A DNA stretch of 64,000 nt, from assembly GCA_017848795.1 (NCBI GenBank), contig JAFIHG010000011.1, positions 1-64,000 on the forward strand, given 5' to 3'. Made by a program: the position numbers and the translations under genes. The notes below the pieces were generated by a model, which ran no database searches, was not told the origin of the DNA, and saw nothing but the letters and a program-made list of their open reading frames with translations. This document shows positions 23,221 to 38,027 of this stretch, piece after piece. Source of the stretch: Candidatus Nanopelagicales bacterium. Lineage in GTDB: Bacteria; Actinomycetota; Actinomycetes; S36-B12; CAIYMF01. How positions within the stretch are numbered: position 1 is the first letter of the stretch; each line of letters starts with the position of its first letter.

Positions 23221-24447
23221 ATGCTTCGCGACTCGACGCTCGAACTGCTCGCTCTCGGTTACGACTACGGGGGCCGGCAGTTCGAGCGTCGTGGCGCGTC
23301 CGGGGGAGCGCAGACCAGGCTGCTCTTCGCACGCACGACGGTGCTCCGTGGGCCCGAGGCGGTAGCCCTCTTCTACGACGAGTCGCTTGTGGCACGCGCG
23401 GGCGCCATGCCCTCACGGGTCCGGCGCACCTTGCTGGGCGTGGGTGGCATCCAAGGCTTGGACGACACGGCACATCACGCGCGCCGCGGACTGTTCCTGC
23501 GATTGCTCGACGGTGCAGCGGTCGAGGACGTGCGTGAGCGGGTGGAGACGCTCTGGCGCGACGAACTACCGCGGTGGGAGCGCGCCGGGCCCATCACCCT
23601 GCACGACGAGATCGGGCTGCTGCTGTGCCGCGCCGCCCACGACTGGGTCGGCGTGCCCTACACCCAGGGGCAGCTGGCCGGCAGGTACGCCTCGCTCGCC
23701 GCCATGATCGACGCTCCGGCGGCACTCGGACCACGCCATCTGCGCGGTCGCGCCGCGCGACGTGGCGCGGAGCGCGGCCTGGCCCGGCTCGTCAGCGACG
23801 TGCGCGCAGGCGTACGGGATGCGCCGCCGGGTTCGCCGCTGGAGGCGATCAGCGCCTTCTGTGACGAGAGCGGCTCGCGTCTCGCCCCCCGGGTAGCAGC
23901 CGTGGAGCTGCTAAACCTGCTGCGGCCCATCGTCGCCGTACAGCGCTTCGTCGTGTTCGCCGCTCTGGCACTGGAGACGCACCCGGAATGGCGCGCGAAG
24001 GTCCGTGCCGATCCCTCGCGCGCCGCGGACGTCGCATCGGAGGTGCGCCGCTACTACCCGTTCTTCCCGATGGTCGCGGGAAAGGCGCGCCGGGCGATCA
24101 TGTTCGACGACCTACGGGTTCCGGCCGGAAGCCGGCTGCTGCTCGATCTGGAGACGACCGACCACGAGCCGGCGGACTGGAGCAGGCCTTGGGTCTTCGA
24201 CCCCGACCGGTTTGCGCACGAGCCGTCCTTGCGGAACCGGCTCGTCGCCCAGGGCGGCGGGCCGCCCGGTGGTCACCGGTGCCCCGGTGAGGCGCTCACC
24301 CAGGAACTCACGGCTCTTGCGATACGGAGGTTGTGCGCAATGAGTTACACGGTGCCCGCCCAGGACCTGCGGGTCGACCGTCGACGGATGCCCACCGGGC
24401 CACGCAGTGGCATGGTCCTCGACGTGACGCGGACGGGCGGCGAGTGA
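23221..24447 (+). CDS. cytochrome P450, CYP152-type peroxygenase
   Basis: A 408-residue haem-thiolate protein. The haem Cys is Cys354 in GGHRCPGEA, with the unusual QGGGPPGG run before it. The ExxR motif is EVRR (274-277). The I-helix has LLRPIVAVQRF with Arg235-Pro236 instead of the acid-alcohol pair, the hallmark of CYP152 fatty-acid peroxygenases, which use hydrogen peroxide directly. The aligned B-prime residue is Gln78 (GIQGLDDTAHH), as in the BS-beta hydroxylase rather than the His of the OleT decarboxylase, so alpha/beta-hydroxylation is more likely than alkene formation. Confidence 0.9.
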   Translation: MLRDSTLELLALGYDYGGRQFERRGASGGAQTRLLFARTTVLRGPEAVALFYDESLVARAGAMPSRVRRTLLGVGGIQGLDDTAHHARRGLFLRLLDGAAVEDVRERVETLWRDELPRWERAGPITLHDEIGLLLCRAAHDWVGVPYTQGQLAGRYASLAAMIDAPAALGPRHLRGRAARRGAERGLARLVSDVRAGVRDAPPGSPLEAISAFCDESGSRLAPRVAAVELLNLLRPIVAVQRFVVFAALALETHPEWRAKVRADPSRAADVASEVRRYYPFFPMVAGKARRAIMFDDLRVPAGSRLLLDLETTDHEPADWSRPWVFDPDRFAHEPSLRNRLVAQGGGPPGGHRCPGEALTQELTALAIRRLCAMSYTVPAQDLRVDRRRMPTGPRSGMVLDVTRTGGE

Positions 24448-26363: not shown

Positions 26364-26921
26364 ATGGCCGAGCAGGCAACGGGAACGGACGACGTGGTCG
26401 ACTTCCTGACCATGCAGCACGAGCAGATCAAGAGTCTGTTCGCGCAGACTCTGGCGGCCCCGGGCGACGAACGGGGCAAACATTTCGGTGACCTCTGCGC
26501 GCTGCTCGCGGTCCACGAGACGGGGGAGGAGTTGGTCCTGCGCCCGGTCACCGAGAAGACCGCCGGATCCGCGGTGACCGATGCGCGCAACAAGGAGGAG
26601 AAGGAAGCGACAGAAGCTCTCGCGGAGCTGGAAAAGATGGATCCGGCCAGTGAAGACTTCCTGACCAAGTTGCGCAGCCTGCAGACCGACGTCGTCGACC
26701 ATGCCGAGAAGGAGGAGCACACCGAGTTCCCCACGCTGCGCGACCAGCGCACCGCGGAGGAGCGGGAGAAGATGGGCCGACGCCTGCGCTCGGTCGAGAA
26801 GATGGCACCGACCCACCCGCACCCCACCGCGGCCGGGTCGCCGGTCGCACAGGCGGTGACCGGGCCGTTCGCCGCCATCGTCGATCGCGTGAAGGACGCA
26901 CTGTCGAGCGACGGGGGATGA
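26364..26921 (+). CDS. hemerythrin HHE domain protein
   Basis: A 185-residue protein with the helical hemerythrin pattern: His19 (MQHEQIKSLF), His51 and Glu55 (AVHETGEELVL), then HAEKEEHTEFP with His113, acidic residues and His119. These could bind a non-haem diiron site for oxygen, NO or peroxide sensing. The C-terminus (MAPTHPHPTAAGSPVAQAV) is typical of actinobacterial members. The next gene, a GT2-HAD fusion, starts inside its stop codon (ATGA), an unexpected coupling. Confidence 0.9.
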   Translation: MAEQATGTDDVVDFLTMQHEQIKSLFAQTLAAPGDERGKHFGDLCALLAVHETGEELVLRPVTEKTAGSAVTDARNKEEKEATEALAELEKMDPASEDFLTKLRSLQTDVVDHAEKEEHTEFPTLRDQRTAEEREKMGRRLRSVEKMAPTHPHPTAAGSPVAQAVTGPFAAIVDRVKDALSSDGG

Positions 26922-28411
26922 GCCAGCCGCAGCCCACTGTCGCCGTCGTCATCCCGACCATCGGCCGACCCAGCCTGCACCACCTGCTGCAGGCACTCGC
27001 TGCGGACGGTCCGCGCGCCCAGTGTCTGATCGTCGTCGACGACCGCGTCGACCCGACTCCGCCGCTGTGCTTGCCATCCTTGTCCGTTCCTCACCGCGTC
27101 CTGCGATCCGGTGGACGTGGTCCGGCAGCTGCCCGCAACGTGGGCTGGCGGGCTGCACGTACCGAATGGATCAGCTTCCTCGACGACGACGTGCTGCCGC
27201 CCGCCGGCTGGTGGCGGGCGCTGCATCACGATCTGGCAGCCGCCGCAGACGCCGCGGGAACCCAGGCCCGGGTGACGGTGCCACTGCCGGGGTGGCGCTG
27301 GCCGACCGACTGGGAACGGTCCGTCGCCGGTCTTGCCCAGGCGCGGTGGATCACCGCCGACATGGCGTACCGGCGTGATGCGCTGCGGGCCGTCGGCGGT
27401 TTCGACGAGCGGTTCCGGCGGGCGTACCGGGAGGACTGCGACCTGGCGATCCGTCTGCAGGATCGCGGGTTTCGGCTCGTCCGCGGCTCCCGTACGATCT
27501 CCCACCCGGTGCGTTCCGCGGATCCCTGGGTCAGCGTCAGGCTGCAGGTCGGCAACGCCGACGACGCCCTCATGCGGAGGTTGCACGGGCCGGCGTGGCG
27601 GGAGCGCGGCGATGCCGGACGGGGCCGATTGCCCAGCCACCTGGCCGTCACGGGAATGTTCGCCGCGGCGGCCGTCCTCGGAATCGCCGGGCGCCGCAGG
27701 ATCGCGGGCCTGCTGGGCGCGCTCGCTGCCGCGGAGACCGCACGCTTCGCTCGCGAGCGGATCCGGCCCGGACCGAGAACGGTCCGTGAGGTCGCGACCA
27801 TGCTCGCGACGAGTGTCGCGATCCCACCGCTCGCGACCTGGCACGCGCTTCGCGGCCGGATCCAGCACCGGCACGCGAAACCATGGCGCGGACTGCCCGA
27901 GGCCGTCCTCATCGACCGGGACGGCACGCTCGTCGAGGACGTCCCTTACAACGGCGACCCGGACGCAGTACGCCCGAGACCAACAGCGCACGAAGCAATA
28001 TCCGCGTTGCGGCAGGCCGGTGTCCCGGTCGCGGTCGTCACCAACCAGTCGGGAGTGGCGCGCGGTTCGTTGACTCCTGCCCAGGTCGAGGCGGTGAACG
28101 CCAGGATCGACCAGTTGTTGGGACCGTTCGCGTCCTGGCACGTCTGCCCGCACGGCCCCGACGACGGGTGCGAGTGCCGCAAGCCCAACCCCGGACTGCT
28201 CTTGCGCGCCTGCGAGCTGCTCGACGCGGATCCCGGCCGGAGCGTGATGATCGGCGACATCGGCTCCGACCTGTCGGCCGCAGCTGCCGCAGGCTGCACC
28301 GGCGTCCTCGTGCCGACGCCGGTGACGCTCCTCGAAGAGGTCCGCGCCGCGGAACGCGTCTACCCGGACCTGGCGGCTGCCGCCGGCGTGCTGCTGTCCG
28401 GCACGTGGTGA
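26918..28411 (+). CDS. GT2 glycosyltransferase fused to GmhB-like HAD phosphatase
   Basis: A 497-residue fusion. Residues 1-310 are a GT-A glycosyltransferase: VAVVIPTIGRPSL, RGPAAARNVGW, the FLDDDV metal motif (DDD 89-91), and REDCDLAIRLQDRGF near 171-185. Residues 328-497 are a HAD-IIIA phosphatase: DRDGTL (Asp333, Asp335), VTNQSGVARG, the zinc loop Cys410-His412-Cys418-Cys420, RKPNPG, and GDIGSD. That zinc loop is typical of GmhB, which removes a phosphate from D-glycero-D-manno-heptose 1,7-bisphosphate. GmhA and HldE are encoded downstream, so a complete heptose route can be inferred. Both domains appear intact. Confidence 0.9.
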   Translation: MSQPQPTVAVVIPTIGRPSLHHLLQALAADGPRAQCLIVVDDRVDPTPPLCLPSLSVPHRVLRSGGRGPAAARNVGWRAARTEWISFLDDDVLPPAGWWRALHHDLAAAADAAGTQARVTVPLPGWRWPTDWERSVAGLAQARWITADMAYRRDALRAVGGFDERFRRAYREDCDLAIRLQDRGFRLVRGSRTISHPVRSADPWVSVRLQVGNADDALMRRLHGPAWRERGDAGRGRLPSHLAVTGMFAAAAVLGIAGRRRIAGLLGALAAAETARFARERIRPGPRTVREVATMLATSVAIPPLATWHALRGRIQHRHAKPWRGLPEAVLIDRDGTLVEDVPYNGDPDAVRPRPTAHEAISALRQAGVPVAVVTNQSGVARGSLTPAQVEAVNARIDQLLGPFASWHVCPHGPDDGCECRKPNPGLLLRACELLDADPGRSVMIGDIGSDLSAAAAAGCTGVLVPTPVTLLEEVRAAERVYPDLAAAAGVLLSGTW

Positions 28412-28550
28412 GGGTGGGCGGAGTCGCTGTAGTCAGCGCGTAGCGCTCGGCTCACAGCGAGAAGCGCTTCGAGTGGCGGGGTGCCGAGGTTGCGCCTTTA
28501 CTTGCCGCACGGGTTGGAAAACGCAGCCCACTTCTGCGGGAAGGGCTTCG

Positions 28551-30230
28551 ATGCGGATCCTCGGGATCAACGCGTTGTTCCACGACCCCGCCGCTGCACT
28601 CGTCGTCGACGGACAGGTGGTGGCGGCGATCGAGGAGGAGCGCCTGAGCAGGCGCAAGCACGGCAAGCGTCCAGTGCCGTTCTCGGCGTGGGAGCTGCCG
28701 GAACTCGCGGCTGCGGCGTGCCTGCAGCGCGCAGGGCTCGAGCCGGGCCAGCTCGACCGGGTCGCCTACTCCTACGACCCGCGGCTCGCCGAACCTGCCG
28801 AGACGCTCGGCCTGCAGGATCCCTGGGACCCGCTGCGACAACGGTTCGCCCGGACGGCGCCCGGCTTCCTCGCGACTGCGTTGCCGGGCCTGGATCCCGC
28901 CGACGTCGACTTCGTCCCGCACCACGTCGCGCACGCCGCCAGCGCCGGGCTGGCCGGACCCGGTGCACGCCAGCGCTGCAGCGTGCTCGTGCTTGACGGG
29001 CGGGGAGAGGCGACGAGCCACCTCGCTGGTCGTTACCGGCGCGGAGAGCTGGAAGTGATGGCACGGCAACGGCTTCCGCACTCGTTGGGGCTCGCCTACG
29101 AGTCGCTCACGGAGCACCTGGGTTTCCTGCGCAGCAGCGACGAGTACAAGGTGATGGCGTTGGCGTCGTACGGCGAACCGCGCTTCCTTCCCGAGGTGCG
29201 CGCTGCGATCCGCTCCACCGGCGACGGCGGGTTCCGCACCGACCCGATCGACTGGAACCGGTTCGCCAAGCGAGTCCACGCAGGGGACGAACTCGCGCAG
29301 AGCCATGCCGATCTGGCCGCATCGGTGCAGCGCGCAGTCGAGGACACGGTGCTGTCGCTGGCGCGCTGGGTGCACGCCCACACGAAAGACCGGCTGCTGG
29401 TGCTCGCCGGCGGCGTCGCACTGAACTGCGTCGCCAACACCCGGATCCACGACGAGTCGCCATTCGACGAGGTGTGGGTCCAGCCCGCGGCAGGCGACGC
29501 CGGGACCGCGCTGGGCGCCGCGCTGCACGTGGCGACGGTCGGCGGCGACGAGTGCGCGCCGATGCCCGATGCCGCCCTCGGCCGGGACTGGACCGACGCC
29601 GAGCTCGAGGCCGAGCTGGTGCGAACCCGCACCGCGTACGAGCGGCCGGACGACCTCGCCGAAACGGTGGCCGCGGCACTGTCCGCGAACCAGATCATCG
29701 CCTGGTTCCAAGGGCGCAGTGAGTACGGTCCGCGAGCGCTCGGGCAGCGGTCGCTGCTCGCGCATCCGGGGTACGCACAGAACCTGGAGCGGCTCAACGA
29801 GATCAAAGGACGCGAGCAGTTCCGCCCGGTCGCGCCGATGGTGCTCGCCGAACGTGCCGGCGACATCTTCGGTCGCGGACCACTGCCCTCGCCGTACATG
29901 CTCTTCGTGCACGACGTGGAACCGGCCTGGCGCGACCGGATTCCCGCGGTCGTCCATGTGGACGGGACCGCACGCGTGCAGACCGTCGAGCGTTCCCGGC
30001 AGCCGTTGCTGGCGGCGACCCTCGGCGCGTTCGAGCGCCGAACCGGGCTTCCCGTCCTGGTCAACACCAGCCTCAACACTGCAGGCCGACCGATGGTCGA
30101 CAGTCCGCGCGATGCGCTGGAGTGCTTCGGGTCCGCGCCGGTCGACGTGCTCGTGCTCGGCCCGTTCGTGGTCCGCCGCTGCACGGGCCACCAGGTAGGG
30201 CTGCCAGGCGTTCCAGGGACGGCCGCATGA
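28551..30230 (+). CDS. carbamoyltransferase, NodU/CmcH/TobZ family
   Basis: A 559-residue two-domain enzyme that makes carbamoyl-AMP from carbamoyl phosphate and ATP in a Kae1-like domain and transfers the carbamoyl group to a sugar hydroxyl. Visible features are MRILGINALFHDPAAALV, the metal-binding HHVAHAASAG (His124, His125, His128), SSDEYKVMALASYG, and the C-terminal YGPRALGQRSLLAHP, REQFRPVAPMVL and NTSLNTAGRPMVDSP. Start is the ATG at 28551. The next gene overlaps by ATGA. The acceptor is probably a sugar of the glycan built by this cluster. Confidence 0.93.
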   Translation: MRILGINALFHDPAAALVVDGQVVAAIEEERLSRRKHGKRPVPFSAWELPELAAAACLQRAGLEPGQLDRVAYSYDPRLAEPAETLGLQDPWDPLRQRFARTAPGFLATALPGLDPADVDFVPHHVAHAASAGLAGPGARQRCSVLVLDGRGEATSHLAGRYRRGELEVMARQRLPHSLGLAYESLTEHLGFLRSSDEYKVMALASYGEPRFLPEVRAAIRSTGDGGFRTDPIDWNRFAKRVHAGDELAQSHADLAASVQRAVEDTVLSLARWVHAHTKDRLLVLAGGVALNCVANTRIHDESPFDEVWVQPAAGDAGTALGAALHVATVGGDECAPMPDAALGRDWTDAELEAELVRTRTAYERPDDLAETVAAALSANQIIAWFQGRSEYGPRALGQRSLLAHPGYAQNLERLNEIKGREQFRPVAPMVLAERAGDIFGRGPLPSPYMLFVHDVEPAWRDRIPAVVHVDGTARVQTVERSRQPLLAATLGAFERRTGLPVLVNTSLNTAGRPMVDSPRDALECFGSAPVDVLVLGPFVVRRCTGHQVGLPGVPGTAA

Positions 30231-31249
30231 GCCGGCGCGTGCTGGTGGTGCGACTGGACAGCGCCGGCGACGTGCTGCTGACCAGTCCGGCCGTCCGGGC
30301 CATCGCGGCCCGTGCGGAAGTCGCCTTCCTGGCCGGCCCGTTGGGCACCGAGGCCGCCCGCTTGTTGCCCGGTGTCGGGCAGGTGCTCACCTGGAACTGC
30401 CCCTGGGTGGTGCGCGACCCGGACCCGGTGACGGCGTCCGACGTGCTCGACGTGGCGGCGCTGGTGCGGTCCAGCGAGGTCGACGAGGCGCTGATCTTCA
30501 CGTCGTTCCATCAGAGCCCGCTACCGACTGCGCTCGTCCTGCGGATGGCGGGGGTGGCGCAGATCGGCGCCACCAGCGTGGACTACCCCGGCGCGCTGCT
30601 CGACCTGCGTCACCGGCCGGAGCCCGGTGGGCACGAGGTGGACCGCAACCTCGCGCTCGCGGCTGCGGCCGGGTTCGCCTGGCCCGACGCGGACCCGCCG
30701 CGCCTGGCGGTGCGTCAACCACTGCCCGACGTACTGGCGCGTACCGGCCCGGGCCGCTACGTCGTGGTCCATCCCGGGGCGTCGGCGCCCGCGCGCACCT
30801 GGACCCCGCGGAGCTGGCGGCGCGCGGTACGTGCCTTGGCGGACAACGGCTTCCGGGTGGTCGTCACCGGGTCCGCAGGAGAACGGGCACTGTGCCAGGA
30901 AGTGGCGGCGCATGCGGCACGTGACCTGTCGGGACGTACCACGCTCGCCGAGACCGCTGCCGTCCTGCAGGGGGCCGATGCCGTCGTCGTCGGCAACACC
31001 GGGCCCGCACACCTGGCCGCCGCCGTCGGTACGCCCGTCGTGTCCTTGTTCGCGCCCACCGTCCCGGCCGAGTCGTGGGCGCCGTACGGCGTGCGCTCCG
31101 TGCTGCTGGGCGACCAGCAGGCCGCGTGCCGTGGATCGCGCGCGGTGCGGTGTCCGGAACCGGGCCATCCGTGCTTGGAATCGGTGAGCGCCGACGATGT
31201 CGTCGCCTGTGTGGAGAAGCTGGTCGGGGGGCTGTCGTGCGTGTCCTGA
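30227..31249 (+). CDS. GT9 glycosyltransferase (heptosyltransferase-like)
   Basis: A 340-residue GT-B enzyme of the ADP-heptose:LPS heptosyltransferase family. The N-terminus is VLVVRLDSAGDVLLTSPAVRA, the C-terminal donor domain begins VVVHPGASAPARTWTP, and the donor-site loop is [17 protein letters not shown]. In Gram-negatives GT9 enzymes transfer heptose to inner-core LPS; here the acceptor must differ. Translationally coupled on both sides (ATGA upstream; 13-bp overlap downstream). Confidence 0.92.
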   Translation: MSRRVLVVRLDSAGDVLLTSPAVRAIAARAEVAFLAGPLGTEAARLLPGVGQVLTWNCPWVVRDPDPVTASDVLDVAALVRSSEVDEALIFTSFHQSPLPTALVLRMAGVAQIGATSVDYPGALLDLRHRPEPGGHEVDRNLALAAAAGFAWPDADPPRLAVRQPLPDVLARTGPGRYVVVHPGASAPARTWTPRSWRRAVRALADNGFRVVVTGSAGERALCQEVAAHAARDLSGRTTLAETAAVLQGADAVVVGNTGPAHLAAAVGTPVVSLFAPTVPAESWAPYGVRSVLLGDQQAACRGSRAVRCPEPGHPCLESVSADDVVACVEKLVGGLSCVS

Positions 31250-32202
31250 TGTGGCACGTGCACGGCTCGTGGACGACGTCGTTCGTCCAGGGCCGGCACG
31301 AGGTCGTGCTTCCGGTCCTGCCCGATCGCGGTCCGGACGGGCGGGGGCGTGCCACGACCTGGGACTGGCCGGACCGTGTCGTCGAACTGCCTCCCGAACA
31401 GCTCGCCGACGCAGGCATCGACGTCGTACTGCTGCAACGGCCGCAGGAGTTCGACCTTGCGGCGCAGTGGTTGCGCCGGCGCCCCGGAGCGGACGTGCCG
31501 GCCGTGTACGTGGAGCACGATCTGCCGCGCCGTGAGGTGCCGTACCTGCCCCATCACGTCGCCGACCGGCCCGATGTCACGTTGGTGCACGTCACGCACG
31601 TCGGCGCGGCGCTGTGGGACAACGGACGGGCCCGGACACGGGTGATCGAGCACGGCATCGTCGATCCCGGCGCGCGCTGGACCGGGGAGCTGGACCGCGC
31701 AGCCGTTGTCGTGAACGAACCGGTCCGGCGGGCGCGCTTGGCGGGCACGGACCTGCTCCCGCGGCTGATTCCCGCGGACGTGGGCCTCGACCTGTTCGGG
31801 ATGCAGGCCAGTGCCGCCCGTGAACTGCCCTGGTGGCCGGCGGGGAACGGCACCTTCGACGACCTGCCGCAGGACCGACTCCATGCGCAGTTGGGCAAGC
31901 GGCGCGTCTACGTGCATCCCTACCGCTGGACCTCGCTCGGGCTGTCGCTGCTCGAGGCGATGCATCTCGGCATGCCGATCGTGGCGCTCGGTGCCAGCGA
32001 GACCTGGCGAGCGGTCCCGGCCGAGGCCGGCCTGGTGTCGAGCGACCCCGACGAGTGCCGCGCCGCCGTCCGGTACTTCGCCCACGAACATGAGGCGGCG
32101 GCGGTAGCCGGCAAGGCCGCCCGCGCCGCCGCGCTCGAACGCTACGGACTCGAGCGGTTCCTGACGCGATGGGACCAGCTGCTCCTGGAGGTGACGCAGT
32201 GA
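31237..32202 (+). CDS. glycosyltransferase, GT4-like C-terminal domain
   Basis: A 321-residue protein starting at GTG 31237, with GGGGGG 5-10 nt upstream and overlapping the GT9 gene by 13 bp. The N-terminus VRVLMWHVHGSWTTSFVQG is common in actinobacterial cluster glycosyltransferases. The C-terminal half shows the donor-binding pattern YVHPYRWTSLGLSLLEAM followed by GMPIVALG. Donor and acceptor are unknown. The following gene begins within its stop (GTGA). Confidence 0.85.
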   Translation: MRVLMWHVHGSWTTSFVQGRHEVVLPVLPDRGPDGRGRATTWDWPDRVVELPPEQLADAGIDVVLLQRPQEFDLAAQWLRRRPGADVPAVYVEHDLPRREVPYLPHHVADRPDVTLVHVTHVGAALWDNGRARTRVIEHGIVDPGARWTGELDRAAVVVNEPVRRARLAGTDLLPRLIPADVGLDLFGMQASAARELPWWPAGNGTFDDLPQDRLHAQLGKRRVYVHPYRWTSLGLSLLEAMHLGMPIVALGASETWRAVPAEAGLVSSDPDECRAAVRYFAHEHEAAAVAGKAARAAALERYGLERFLTRWDQLLLEVTQ

Positions 32203-33428
32203 GGATCGCGATGGTGTCGGAGCACGCGAACCCGCTGGCGGCGATCGGTGGAGTGGACGCGGGTGGGCAGAACGTCCACGTCGCCGCACTGGCCGCTGCA
32301 CTCGTACGCCGCGGGCATGGTGTGACCGTCTTCACCCGCCGCGACCGCGCCGACCAGTCCACCGTCGTACTGACCGACGACGGCTACCGCGTGCACCACC
32401 TCAGCGCCGGTCCGGCCGCAGAGGTGCCCAAGGACGAGCTGCTGCCGTACGTGCCCCAGCTCGCGCGCGGCCTCACCGACGCCCTTCGCGCGGAGCCGTT
32501 CGACGTTGTCCACGCACACTTCTGGATGAGCGGACTGGTCGCGACGGCAGCGGTACGGGAGGTCGCGGACAGCGGCGGCCCGGAGGTGCCGGTCGTGCAG
32601 ACGTTCCACGCGCTCGGGTCGGTGAAGCGCCGCCACCAGCGCGAACGCGACACCAGTCCGCCGGGACGGGTGACGCTCGAGCGACGGCTGTGCCGCGATG
32701 TCGACCACGTCATCGCCACGTGCAGCGACGAGGTGCACGAACTCGCCGCGCTCGGCCTGCCGCGGTCCAAGGCGTCGGTCGTGCCGTGCGGCGTTGATAC
32801 GACGCGGTTCCGCCCGGAGGGAGCGGTCGCGGCGCGGCCTGCAGCACCGCGGATCCTGTCGATCGGACGCCTGGTCGAGCGCAAGGGCGTTGAGGACGTC
32901 ATCCGCGCGATGCCGTACGTGCCCGGAGCCGAGCTCGCCATCGCGGGTGGTCCGGCGCGGGAGGCGCTGCACGTGGATCCCGAGGCGTGCCGGCTGGCGG
33001 ACGTTGCCGGTCGGTTGGGCGTCGCTGATCGGGTCACCCTCCTCGGCGCGGTGGCGCGCGAGGACGTGCCGCCGCTGCTGCGTTCCGCGGACATCGTTGT
33101 CGCCACCCCGTGGTACGAGCCGTTCGGCATCGTGCCGCTCGAGGCGATGGCCTGCGGGCGTCCGGTCGTGGCCTCGGCCGTCGGCGGCCTCACCGACACG
33201 GTCTCCGACGGCGAGACCGGCATCCTCGTCGCGCCGCGCGATGCTGCGGCGATCGGGGGCGCGTTGCAGCGCCTGCTCGGGGACCCCGCGCTGTGCGTCC
33301 GGCTCGGGCAGGGCGGCCGGGCGCGGGTGCTGGCCCGCTACCGCTGGGACCACGTCGCCGAGGCCAGTGAAGCGGTCTACCTCGCGCTCACCGCGCGGCG
33401 GCTGAGCAGGACGGGGACGACGTCATGA
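32199..33428 (+). CDS. GT4 family glycosyltransferase
   Basis: A 409-residue GT-B enzyme. The acceptor domain opens with MVSEHANPLAAIGG and GGQNVHVAALAAALVRRGH; the donor domain has ILSIGRLVERKGVEDVI and the retaining-enzyme E-x7-E region YEPFGIVPLEAMACG. The GGQNV loop is shared with MshA and sucrose-phosphate synthase-like enzymes. It overlaps neighbours at both ends (GTGA, ATGA). It could add the first sugar of the glycan, but this is inference. Confidence 0.92.
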   Translation: MRIAMVSEHANPLAAIGGVDAGGQNVHVAALAAALVRRGHGVTVFTRRDRADQSTVVLTDDGYRVHHLSAGPAAEVPKDELLPYVPQLARGLTDALRAEPFDVVHAHFWMSGLVATAAVREVADSGGPEVPVVQTFHALGSVKRRHQRERDTSPPGRVTLERRLCRDVDHVIATCSDEVHELAALGLPRSKASVVPCGVDTTRFRPEGAVAARPAAPRILSIGRLVERKGVEDVIRAMPYVPGAELAIAGGPAREALHVDPEACRLADVAGRLGVADRVTLLGAVAREDVPPLLRSADIVVATPWYEPFGIVPLEAMACGRPVVASAVGGLTDTVSDGETGILVAPRDAAAIGGALQRLLGDPALCVRLGQGGRARVLARYRWDHVAEASEAVYLALTARRLSRTGTTS

Positions 33429-34030
33429 GCACCGCGGCACACCGGCACCTGCACGAGATCAGCGACGCCCTCGATCGGTTCGCCCCGCAGGCCGAGCTGG
33501 CATCGGCGTGGGGTCGGACGCTGGGTCCGGTGCTGCTCGACGGGGGCCGACTGCTCGCCGCGGGCAACGGCGGCAGCGCTGCCCAGGCGCAGCATCTGAC
33601 GGCCGAGCTCGTCGGGCGTTTCGAAAGTGAACGGCGAGCGCTGTCCGCGGTGTGCCTCACCAGCGAGACGTCGACCCTCACCGCGCTCATCAACGACTAC
33701 CCGTCCGACCAGCTGTATGCCCGCCAGGTCGCCGCGCACGGACGCCCCGGTGATGTGTGCGTGCTGCTGTCCACCAGCGGACGCAGCCGGAACATCCTGG
33801 CGGCAGCGGAGCAGGCGCGCCGGAGCGGGCTGCTGGTGTGGGCGCTGACCGGGTCGCTGCCGAACCCGTTGGCGTCGGCGGCCCACGAGGTCATCGCCGT
33901 ACCGGCCGCGCGGACCAGCACGGTGCAGGAACTGCACCTTGTCGCGCTGCACGTGATGTGTGCCGGCGTCGACGAGGTCGTCCGGTCGGCCGCGCCGGCC
34001 CCCGTCGCGGGTGAGCTGGTCGCTCCATGA
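33425..34030 (+). CDS. gmhA: phosphoheptose isomerase (sedoheptulose 7-phosphate isomerase)
   Basis: A 201-residue SIS-domain protein. GNGGSAA (48-54 region) binds phosphate. His57, Glu61, Gln168 and His176 sit at the same spacings as the E. coli GmhA zinc and catalytic set His61, Glu65, Gln172, His180. Other family segments are LTALINDYPSD and LLSTSGRSRNIL. GmhA converts sedoheptulose 7-phosphate to D-glycero-D-manno-heptose 7-phosphate, the first committed step to NDP-heptose. Coupled by ATGA overlaps to the GT4 and HldE genes. Confidence 0.92.
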   Translation: MSTAAHRHLHEISDALDRFAPQAELASAWGRTLGPVLLDGGRLLAAGNGGSAAQAQHLTAELVGRFESERRALSAVCLTSETSTLTALINDYPSDQLYARQVAAHGRPGDVCVLLSTSGRSRNILAAAEQARRSGLLVWALTGSLPNPLASAAHEVIAVPAARTSTVQELHLVALHVMCAGVDEVVRSAAPAPVAGELVAP

Positions 34031-35430
34031 GGCGCACTTCCACTGCACCGGTCGTCGTGGTCGGCGACGCGCTGCTCGACATCGACCTGCTCGGCACGGC
34101 AGAGCGGATCTGCCCTGACGCGCCCGTGCCGGTCGTCGAGGTCGCCGGTCGGCGGACCCGGCCCGGGGGCGCGGCGCTGGCCGCCGTGCTCGCCGCCCGG
34201 CTCTCCGACCGGCCGGTGGTGCTGCTGTGCCCGATCGCTGGGGACGACGCCGGAAACACGTTGCGGGAGCTCGTATCCGAGGACGTCGAGCTGGTCTCGC
34301 TGCCGGCGTACGGCAGCACAGCGGTCAAGACGCGGGTGCGTGTCGGCGACAGCTCGGTGGTACGGCTGGACTCCGGCTGTGGCGCTTCGGCACGCGGCGG
34401 TCTGACGGTCGAGCAGCGGGCGCTGCTGGAGTCGGCCGCAGTCGTCCTGGTCAGCGATTACGGCAACGGCACCAGCGCGTCTCCCGAGCTCCGGGCACAG
34501 CTCGGCGGACGCAGAGCACCCGTCGTCTGGGACCCGCATCCGCGGGGTTCGGAGCCTGTCGCCGGTGCGCGGCTGGTCACGCCCAATGCCCGGGAGGCGT
34601 TGACCCTGCTCGGTGAAGCGGCGCCCGGGGCGCATCTCGCCGACCTGGCCGAGGTCGGGCGGCGGCTGGCCGAACGGTGGCGTGCCGGTGCGGTCGCAGT
34701 GACCTCCGGTGCGTCCGGGGTCGCGTTGACCTTCGGGGCCGGCGCCCCGCTGCTGGTGCCGGCCGACCCGGTCGCCGGGCGTGACGCCTGCGGCGCCGGG
34801 GACAGCTTCGCGGCGGCCGCCGCCGTTGCGCTCGCCGACGGCGCTCTGGTCAGCGAAGCGGTGCGTACGGCAGTCGCGACCGCATCCGCGTTCGTCGCGG
34901 CTGGTGGCGCAGGTGCCGTCGTGGCCCGCGACGAGGCGAGCCCGCCCCCTGGTCCGGAGGACTCGTTCGCCCGACGGTCCGTGCCGGGCCGCGGCACCGT
35001 CGTCGCCACCGGCGGCTGTTTCGACGTGCTGCACGCCGGTCACATCGCCACGTTGACCGGGGCGCGCAAGCTCGGGGACCGGCTCGTCGTGTGCGTCAAC
35101 TCCGATGCGTCCGTACGCCGTCTGAAGGGGGCCGGGCGACCGGTCGTGCCGATCGAGGACCGGGTGCGGGTGCTGCAGGCGCTCGAATGCGTCGACGAGG
35201 TCGTCGTTTTCGAGCAGGACACCCCGGACGAGGTCCTGGCGCGGCTGCGCCCGGACATCTGGGTCAAGGGCGGTGACTACGCCGGCGCGGAGTTGCCCGA
35301 GGCCGCGGTCCTCGCCAGGTGGGGAGGCCGGGCGGTGGTGCTGCCCTACCTTGCAGGCCGCTCCACCACCGCAATCGTCGACCGCCGGGATCGGCCGTCG
35401 GACATCGAACGAGCAGGAGATCGAGCATGA
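34027..35430 (+). CDS. hldE: bifunctional heptose-7-phosphate kinase / heptose-1-phosphate adenylyltransferase
   Basis: A 467-residue two-domain protein. Residues 1-300 are a PfkB/ribokinase-type kinase with VVGDALLDIDLLGTAERICP and the catalytic DACGAGDS (253-260). Residues 325-455 are a nucleotidyltransferase: GCFDVLHAGH (330-339, HxGH motif), VNSDASVRRLKG and KGGDY (414-418). This domain order and these motifs match HldE, which makes heptose 1,7-bisphosphate and later ADP-heptose. The intervening phosphatase step can be supplied by the HAD domain at 26918. ADP rather than GDP as product is inferred from the RfaE-type fusion. Confidence 0.92.
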   Translation: MRRTSTAPVVVVGDALLDIDLLGTAERICPDAPVPVVEVAGRRTRPGGAALAAVLAARLSDRPVVLLCPIAGDDAGNTLRELVSEDVELVSLPAYGSTAVKTRVRVGDSSVVRLDSGCGASARGGLTVEQRALLESAAVVLVSDYGNGTSASPELRAQLGGRRAPVVWDPHPRGSEPVAGARLVTPNAREALTLLGEAAPGAHLADLAEVGRRLAERWRAGAVAVTSGASGVALTFGAGAPLLVPADPVAGRDACGAGDSFAAAAAVALADGALVSEAVRTAVATASAFVAAGGAGAVVARDEASPPPGPEDSFARRSVPGRGTVVATGGCFDVLHAGHIATLTGARKLGDRLVVCVNSDASVRRLKGAGRPVVPIEDRVRVLQALECVDEVVVFEQDTPDEVLARLRPDIWVKGGDYAGAELPEAAVLARWGGRAVVLPYLAGRSTTAIVDRRDRPSDIERAGDRA

Positions 35431-36122
35431 ACCAATTGCGCTCTGCCGGAACGGTTCTGGTCACCGGCGGTGCGTCCGGGCTCGGCGCAGCGGTGGTCAC
35501 CGCGGTGCGCGAGGCGGGCGGTCGGCCGTACGTCCTCGACCGGGCCACCCCCGACATCGACGTCGAGCACGGGGTCGTCGACCTCGCCGACACCCGGGCG
35601 GCCGAGGACGCTGTCCGCGCCGCGGTGGAGGAGGTCGGCGGGCTCGATGCCGTCGTTGCCGCCGCGGGCACCGACCGGTGCGGCCGCCTCGCCGACGTTC
35701 CCGGTGCGGAGTGGGACCGTGTCGTGCTGGTGAACCTGCTGGGAACCGCCGCGGTCGTCCGGGCAGCGCTGCCGTCGCTCGAGGAGCGCGCCGGTCGGGT
35801 CGTCACCGTCGCGTCCACCCTGGGCTTGCGGGCGCTCAGCGATGCCACCGCATACTGCGCCTCGAAGTTCGGTGTCGTCGGCTTCACCCGCGCGCTCGCC
35901 GCCGAGACCCAAGGTCGTATCGGCGTGACGCTGCTGCTGCCCGGCGGCATGGCCACGCACTTCTTCGACGACCGCGCGCCCCAGTACAAGCCCGGTCCGG
36001 ACGCCAAGCTCAACCGCCCGGAAGACGTGGCGCGTACGGTGATGTTCGCCCTGAGACAGCCGGCGGGGTGCGAGGTGCGCGAGCTCGTGGTGACGCCGTC
36101 ACTCGAGGGCTCATGGCCCTGA
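35427..36122 (+). CDS. classical SDR family oxidoreductase
   Basis: A 231-residue NAD(P)-dependent dehydrogenase. TGGASGLG (13-20) binds the cofactor; Ser130, Tyr143 and Lys147 (YCASK) form the catalytic set. The substrate could be a sugar nucleotide or the glycan carrier; it is not an HldD-type extended SDR. It overlaps HldE by ATGA and the next glycosyltransferase by 10 bp. Confidence 0.9.
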   Translation: MNQLRSAGTVLVTGGASGLGAAVVTAVREAGGRPYVLDRATPDIDVEHGVVDLADTRAAEDAVRAAVEEVGGLDAVVAAAGTDRCGRLADVPGAEWDRVVLVNLLGTAAVVRAALPSLEERAGRVVTVASTLGLRALSDATAYCASKFGVVGFTRALAAETQGRIGVTLLLPGGMATHFFDDRAPQYKPGPDAKLNRPEDVARTVMFALRQPAGCEVRELVVTPSLEGSWP

Positions 36123-37062
36123 CAGCAGTCGTGCTGCGCTCGCTCGGCCTCGGCGACCTGCTCACCGGCGTACCCGCGCTGCGAGCCGTACGGCGCGCGC
36201 TGCCCGATCACCGGCTCGTGCTCGGCGCGCCGGCGTACCTGCTGCCGCTGGTCCGGCTCACCGGAATCCTCGCCTCGGACGGCGACCTGGTGGGGATCCG
36301 GGACCTTGTGCGCATCTCCCGGCCCGACGTCGCCGTCAACCTGCACGGGCGCGGTCCGCGAAGCGACCGGCTGCTGCTGCGGGGCGCACCGCGTCGGCTC
36401 GTGGCATTCCGGTGCCCGAGGCCGGCGTGGACGGTCCGGACTGGAGGGCCGAGGAGCACGAAGTCGCGCGCTGGTGCCGCCTCGTCGGCCAGACCCTTGG
36501 AGGAGGGCCGGACCCCGATGAGCTCGACCTCGCCCCGCCGCCCGCGGCGGCGCTGCCGAGCGGGGTCACGGTGCTGCACCCGGGCGCGGCGGCAGCTGCC
36601 CGCCGCTGGCCGGCCGAGCGTTTCGCGCACGTCGCCGCTGCGCTGGAACGGCGCGGGCACGACGTCGTCGTCACCGGCGGTCGCCAGGAGGTCGAGCTGG
36701 CCGCACGCGTGGTCTCCCTCGCGCGCCTGTCTTCGAGGGCGCTGCTCGCCGGCCGTACCGACCTGGCAGCGCTGGCGTTCCTGGTGGCCCGGGCCGAGCT
36801 CGTGGTGTCGGGTGACACCGGCGTCGCGCACCTGGCGAGCGCCTACCGGCGGCCGTCCGTGGTGCTGTGCGGGCCCGTACCACCGCGGTTGTGGGGCCCG
36901 CCGCAACGGGCGCGGCACGTCGCCCTGTGGCACGGCGGGTCGGGAGACCCGCACGCAGCGGTGCCGGACCCGGCGCTGCTGGAGATCACCGCCGAGGAGG
37001 TCATCGCCGCCGTGGAACGAGTTCTGTCATCGACACACCTGCAGCGGGAGGCGGTGCCATGA
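36113..37062 (+). pseudogene. second GT9 heptosyltransferase-like gene, split by a frameshift
   Basis: The two halves of one GT9 protein lie in different frames. From the ATG at 36113 the first frame gives MALTAVVLRSLGLGDLLTG through RRLVAF, ending near 36410. The continuing homologous sequence ([49 protein letters not shown]) is in the frame that reads CCC GAG at 36415. One base appears missing at about 36411-36415. No slippery heptamer is seen. Either the gene is inactivated or the base is an assembly error. Gene spacing is undisturbed: it overlaps the SDR by 10 bp and the next gene by ATGA, suggesting a recent change. Confidence 0.82.
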
Positions 37063-38027
37063 ACCGGGACGTGGACTTCGCGGACCGACGCGTCGTCGTG
37101 ACGGGTGGAGCGGGATTCCTCGGCTCGCACCTGTGCGAGGAACTGCTGCGACGGGGAGCGCGGGTGGTGTGCCTGGACAACTTCCTCACCGGCAGTCCGG
37201 TGAACGTCGCGCACCTGCTGCCGAACCCGCGGTTCCGGTTGGTGCGTTGCGACGTGAGCGACTACGTGCACGTGCCTGGCGCGGTGGACCTGGTGCTGCA
37301 CTTCGCCTCGCCGGCATCACCGATCGACTACCTGCGCGTACCGATCGCCACGCTGAAGGTGGGCAGCCTCGGCACACTTCACACGCTCGGGCTGGCCGCG
37401 GAGAAGGGCGCTCGGTTCGTGCTCGCCTCCACGTCGGAGGTCTACGGCGACCCGTTGCAGCACCCGCAGCGGGAGGACTACTGGGGCAACGTGAATCCGG
37501 TCGGTCCGCGCGGCGTCTACGACGAGGCGAAACGCTTCGCCGAGGCACTCACCACGGCGTACCGGACCAGCCGCGGCGTCGACACCGGAATCGTGCGGAT
37601 CTTCAACACGTACGGGCCGCGCATGCGCCCGGACGACGGCCGGGCGATACCGACGTTCATCGGACAGGCGCTCACCGGAGCGCCCGTGACGGTGGCGGGC
37701 GAAGGGCGGCAGACCAGGTCGATCTGCTACGTCGACGACACCGTGTCGGGGATCCTCGCGCTCGCCGGGTCGGACTTCGCCGGTCCGGTGAACATCGGGC
37801 AGGGCGACGAGATCTCGATCCTCGACCTGGCCCGCAAGGTCATCGCACTGTGCGACTCCCGCTCCCGGATCACGCACGTACCGCTGCCGCAGGACGACCC
37901 GTGCGTGCGCCGCCCCGACACCACCCTCGCGTACCGGGAACTGGGCTGGTCGGCGCGGATCGACAACGACGACGGACTGCGCCGTACGATCGCGTGGTTC
38001 CGCACCGCGCTCGACCTCGCCTCCTGA
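37059..38027 (+). CDS. NAD-dependent epimerase/dehydratase, UDP-glucuronate decarboxylase-like
   Basis: A 322-residue extended SDR. GGAGFLG (16-22) binds NAD. Family-specific segments are [29 protein letters not shown] (124-132) and [19 protein letters not shown] with Tyr154 and Lys158. These match UDP-xylose synthase rather than HldD. It would supply UDP-xylose, or modify another sugar nucleotide, for the cluster's glycosyltransferases. Last gene of the chain; a family-A palindrome follows 6 bp after its stop. Confidence 0.9.

Follow-up and report, generated by a model that had tools for sequence, protein, structure and literature searches.

A single open reading frame at positions 26918–28411 of the stretch of DNA analysed here (the window, 64,000 nucleotides from a Candidatus Nanopelagicales bacterium) joins a glycosyltransferase to a phosphatase and lies beside genes for heptose synthesis. 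Which reaction does this phosphatase catalyze, and why is it part of a glycosyltransferase? We propose that the protein is probably an enzyme of two domains encoded in a heptose-glycan operon conserved among actinobacteria, and that its HAD half supplies, as a domain of the GT2 protein, the GmhB activity feeding an ADP-heptose route catalyzed by GmhA and HldE.

Results

The frame runs unbroken on the forward strand from the ATG at 26918 to the TGA ending at 28411 and encodes 497 amino acids. Its ATG shares four bases (ATGA) with the stop of the preceding hemerythrin-domain gene, and its GC content (0.84 at the third versus 0.57 at the second codon position) follows the pattern of a coding frame. 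As full-length homologs with the same arrangement are found in no fewer than 24 other genomes, the frame is beyond chance and is confirmed to be a real gene. Further upstream, at 23221–24447, a P450 resembling CYP152 fatty-acid peroxygenases precedes the cluster.

The N-terminal half (residues ∼1–225; 26918–27592, +) is a GT2 glycosyltransferase of the GT-A type. In the Pfam search, Glycos_transf_2 (PF00535) matched residues 10–131 over its cut-off (1.4e-11); the predicted fold is GT-A and resembles GT2 structures (e.g., WrtF, Z 20.2), and both the DxD metal motif (D89-D90-D91) and the ED motif (E172-D173) are present, being kept in 24 of 25 aligned fusions. Among the profile models, no equivalog cut-off was reached by this half. 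Bacterial GT2 enzymes (MftF- and EpsD-like by profile, WrtF by fold) likewise have the GT-A fold and the DDD and ED motifs, but the window protein carries a phosphatase domain in addition. The two halves are joined by a connector of three predicted helices (residues ∼238–316; 27629–27865, +; AlphaFold2 secondary structure, pLDDT mostly >84). It is moderately hydrophobic, and association with a membrane is possible; anchoring in the membrane via the connector was not accepted, as the family-mean hydropathy peaks at just 1.23 (residues 240–258).

The C-terminal half (residues ∼328–497; 27899–28408, +) is a GmhB-like phosphatase domain of the HAD-IIIA type. Pfam placed a Hydrolase/Hydrolase_like match at residues 349–486, and two NCBIfam models, HAD-IIIA (TIGR01662) and the histidinol-phosphatase-type HAD domain (TIGR01656), were both over cut-off at residues 329–466. 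The HAD motifs are in place (DRDGT, 333–337; TNQSG, 375–379; RKP after the zinc loop; GDIGSD, 446–451), and the catalytic set is complete (D333-x-D335-x-T337, T375/S378, K422, D447/D451). The zinc loop (C410-x-H412-x5-C418-x-C420, followed by R421-K422 of the RKP motif) reads CPHGPDDGCECRKP, one residue apart from that of the Bordetella bronchiseptica GmhB structure 3l8h (CPHGPDDGCACRKP). Over the 25 aligned fusions, the catalytic, zinc-binding, and GT2 motif residues are invariant except for T/S at position 375 and one degenerate copy (L095). The initial annotation had read this frame as a GT-A transferase with an intact metal motif joined to a HAD phosphatase with the GmhB zinc loop; profile matches, motifs, and predicted structure bear out each part of this description, with D89–D91, E172-D173, and C410/H412/C418/C420 all kept.

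Among solved structures, the HAD half matched 3l8h first by sequence (3.4e-24, 89 bits), then 4pnh and the Escherichia coli GmhB structures 3l8e/2gmw; HisB scored 52 bits. The AlphaFold2 model of the whole protein, built from the alignment of 25 fusions, had a mean pLDDT of 92.8 and a pTM of 0.82. In this predicted structure, the HAD half superimposed on 3l8h with a VIA-align Z of 24.9 (1.8 Å over 169 residues), on E. coli GmhB with 24.6, and on HisB with 19.3. Thus, both sequence and structure place it nearest to GmhB, ahead of HisB and other HADs. As the curated equivalog cut-offs for GmhB were missed (TIGR00213, 73–76 bits versus 149.6; PRK08942, 122 versus 178), we name it GmhB-like. With the B. 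bronchiseptica (3l8h) and E. coli (3l8e/2gmw) enzymes it shares the HAD-IIIA fold, the catalytic residues, the Cys/His zinc loop, and the context of GmhA and HldE; it differs from them in forming the C-terminal part of a GT2 protein and has 37–38% identity to them over the structural alignment.

Downstream of the fusion gene, and on the same strand, follow a NodU-type carbamoyltransferase (28551–30230; PF16861/PF02543), a GT9 protein of the ADP-heptose heptosyltransferase family (30227–31249; PF01075, 1.6e-29; best NCBIfam model heptsyl_trn_I, below cut-off), a weakly matching GT4-fold glycosyltransferase (31249–32202; PF13692, 1.8e-6; start inferred at an ATG overlapping the previous stop), and an MshA-like GT4 glycosyltransferase (32169–33428; PF00534 and PF13439). 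Next to these lie the genes for a GmhA-like SIS-domain sedoheptulose-7-phosphate isomerase (33425–34030; PF13580; NCBIfam phosphoheptose isomerase, 7e-48, below cut-off) and an HldE-like heptose-7-phosphate kinase/heptose-1-phosphate adenylyltransferase (34027–35430; PF00294 and PF01467; HldE model, 4e-86, below cut-off). A short-chain dehydrogenase kept in homologous clusters (SDR; 35427–36122; PF00106, 9e-36), a second GT9-family gene (36119–37062, start approximate; PF01075, 1.3e-26 on its 3′ part), and an NAD-dependent sugar epimerase/dehydratase (37059–38027; PF01370, 7.9e-47; homolog in 51 of 80 homologous loci) complete the set. Overlaps of the ATGA type connect several of these genes (30227/30230, 33425/33428, 34027/34030, and 35427/35430). 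No dedicated ADP-heptose 6-epimerase was recognized, the enzyme at 37059–38027 scoring far below the cut-off of that model. The second GT9 gene is split over two frames, its N-terminal half in frame 2 and its C-terminal half in frame 1 with a break near 36400, which is due to either a frameshift or an assembly error. The carbamoyltransferase gene neighbors the fusion gene in nearly all homologous loci; in the window it lies 3′ of it (26918–30230), in nearly all others 5′.

The initial annotation had also claimed that the HAD domain provides the only phosphatase needed for a complete heptose route in the cluster, which a separate gmhB would have contradicted. When the 3.45-Mb genome (98.3% complete) was searched with the fusion protein, TIGR01656, and TIGR00213, the only clear match was the window frame; no second GmhB-like gene was found with these three queries, in agreement with that claim. 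Elsewhere, matches were weak (C18, 28 bits; C55, 22 bits and partial). PF08645 had no match anywhere in the genome; as the HAD domain of the window itself was not matched either, this search is uninformative.

The fusion had furthermore been considered unusual, which was not borne out. In an evenly drawn sample of 396 Actinomycetota genomes, with three or four candidates scored per genome, at least 24 contained a full-length one-frame GT2-HAD fusion (L063–L084, L089, and L098; 51–60% identity), in addition to the degenerate copy L095. A pattern-based scan of named genomes yielded 510 relatives, the best 80 of which came from Nocardia, Mycobacterium, Amycolatopsis, Actinomadura, Saccharopolyspora, Cellulomonas, Georgenia, Jiangella, Kribbella, Nocardiopsis, and others, and included one from Dormibacterota. 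As these 80 loci were chosen by GT2 patterns and full-length score, the fused fraction among them is no estimate of frequency, for which the 396-genome sample serves instead. Given its presence in that sample and in many named genera, the fusion is common in Actinomycetota, that is, a widespread actinobacterial arrangement rather than a peculiarity of this genome.

The content of the locus is conserved as well. Nearly all loci contain a carbamoyltransferase, GT2/HAD, a GT9, two GT4-type genes, a GmhA-like SIS protein, HldE, an SDR, and a second GT9, and most in the order carbamoyltransferase–GT2/HAD–GT9–GT4s–GmhA–HldE–SDR–GT9. Among the 396 genomes, a close relative of the HAD domain was found in 32, a close HldE in 31, and both in 29 (Fisher p ∼3e-38, phylogeny ignored). 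This co-occurrence within genomes, together with the adjacent GmhA and HldE genes, supports the earlier view that the HAD domain serves the heptose route of the cluster. Five named loci had no adjoining GmhA or HldE gene, and in all five genomes a close HldE was present elsewhere. Conversely, two sampled genomes contained a close HldE and no close HAD relative, G411 and G265 (in the latter, the contig ends nearby), so that another phosphatase may serve there. The locus L187 of G411 carries a pair of HldE and SIS genes with no HAD relative within 20 kb.

This one HAD family comprises fused and separate forms side by side, as well as a form with another fusion partner. In L085–L087 (Streptomyces-like, the genus being a guess), GT2 and HAD are encoded by two ORFs that share four bases (ATGA); these loci are the only truly split ones, as L171 and L175 have a single open frame and are hence fused. 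In L097 (8271–10109, −), the HAD domain is joined in frame to the downstream GT9 heptosyltransferase instead of GT2. It occurs with no GT2 in L092, L093 (a short stretch ending inside the cluster), L094, and L096, with GmhA and HldE present in L092, L094, and L096, and L189 has a stand-alone relative flanked by the HldE and GmhA genes. These arrangements indicate that the HAD domain follows the heptose enzymes, whereas its fusion partner can change. The degenerate copy L095 (9538–11154, −) is fused and has no heptose cluster nearby; its GT2 DDD and ED motifs are changed, and the HAD lysine and one motif IV aspartate have given way to proline. The HAD tree, in which 44 of 112 inner branches are open, is too poorly resolved for a safe count of origins or for rooting the fusion, and no direction (fusion or fission) is claimed. 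Two genomes of the window's family contain, just upstream of the heptose genes, an unusual combination of a GT4-type glycosyltransferase domain and a complete sigma-70 factor (regions 2–4) in one ORF (L092, 5783–7657, −; L093, 7760–9661, +).

Discussion

The HAD half is predicted to be a GmhB-type, Mg2+-dependent phosphatase with a structural zinc loop. GmhA would isomerize sedoheptulose 7-phosphate, and the HldE kinase would then form heptose 1,7-bisphosphate, which we infer to be the substrate of the HAD domain. Removal of the 7-phosphate would yield heptose 1-phosphate, to be converted to ADP-heptose by the adenylyltransferase of HldE. HldE-type (PfkB) kinases belong to the beta route, and the presence of one in the cluster would imply the beta anomer at the window phosphatase, too. 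The GmhB of B. bronchiseptica favors the beta anomer (PMC8204981), and the steps follow one another as in the established pathway of E. coli (PMC10948575). ADP-heptose would most likely be consumed by the GT9 heptosyltransferases of the operon, with the GT2 domain adding another sugar, or possibly heptose, to the same growing glycan and the NodU-type enzyme carbamoylating it; the product of the operon is probably a heptose-containing surface sugar.

What, then, is the fusion for? The initial annotation had suggested that heptose phosphate is channeled to the transferase. This notion has been weakened: the product of the phosphatase is no donor for any glycosyltransferase, which makes channeling to GT2 chemically indirect, and adenylylation by HldE, and then probably GT9, come next, which makes direct channeling unlikely. 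It could be rescued if HldE docked on the same protein and passed the heptose on to a fused GT2 that is itself the ADP-heptose transferase. The retention of the full-length fusion at 51–60% identity in many families and the confident two-domain model (pTM 0.82) would fit such a module; however, phosphatase and transferase do not catalyze consecutive steps, the GT9 proteins of the operon are the expected ADP-heptose transferases, and the halves are separate genes in L085–L087, while in L097 the phosphatase is joined to GT9 and in L092–L094 and L096 it occurs with no GT2 at all. We therefore regard a channeling module as very unlikely.

Highly improbable, and ranked next, is that the phosphatase acts after transfer, stripping phosphate from a heptosyl-phosphate or another phosphosugar of the glycan that the fused GT2 has built. 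Its linkage to a transferase, its intact catalytic site, and connector helices that might lie at the membrane are compatible with such a role, but the operon would then be devoid of a 1,7-bisphosphatase, with no other GmhB-like gene found in the genome, and stand-alone relatives of the domain lie beside HldE and GmhA where GT2 is absent. The least probable reading, a general or histidinol-phosphate phosphatase unconnected with heptose, could invoke the name of the over-cut-off model TIGR01656 (which spans both HisB and GmhB) and a zinc loop also found in HisB, but the top similarity of the domain is to GmhB and clearly not to HisB, it co-occurs with HldE and GmhA, and a candidate for a HisN-type histidinol phosphatase is encoded elsewhere (C24:148202–148966; 257.8 bits across the full model, just missing the cut-off of 275), which makes the preference for histidinol phosphate that would have spoken against the initial annotation unlikely.

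Under the preferred reading, a GmhB-like domain serving the GmhA/HldE route, the fusion most likely keeps two operon products, translationally coupled neighbors in the three Streptomyces-like loci, at a set ratio and in one place rather than forming a direct substrate channel. A more far-reaching version, in which the production of ADP-heptose is sited on the glycan-assembling transferase and a carbamoylated, heptose-containing surface glycan is built by actinobacteria, nocardiae and mycobacteria among them, on an organized, previously undescribed multienzyme assembly, is unlikely.

Heptose-pathway activities united in one polypeptide are known from HldE and, as far as it is related in PMC11573728, from an actinobacterial tridomain isomerase/kinase/nucleotidyltransferase of NDP-heptose synthesis (Tang et al, 2022). 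These enzymes join isomerase, kinase, and nucleotidyltransferase activities; the window protein joins the phosphatase, absent from those as they are described there, to a glycosyltransferase. A literature search, whose reach did not extend to Tang et al (2022), where the operon may be mentioned, found no published description of a GT2-HAD fusion, and the arrangement is seemingly undescribed. The fusion gene is easily mislabeled, either as a plain glycosyltransferase or as a histidinol phosphatase, and it directs attention to the phosphatase missing from a heptose operon widespread in Gram-positive actinobacteria. If the proposed activity is true, these organisms would make a heptose surface glycan, no structure for which was found in the literature consulted, and also ADP-heptose, a compound that vertebrate cells sense through ALPK1 (PMC11573728).
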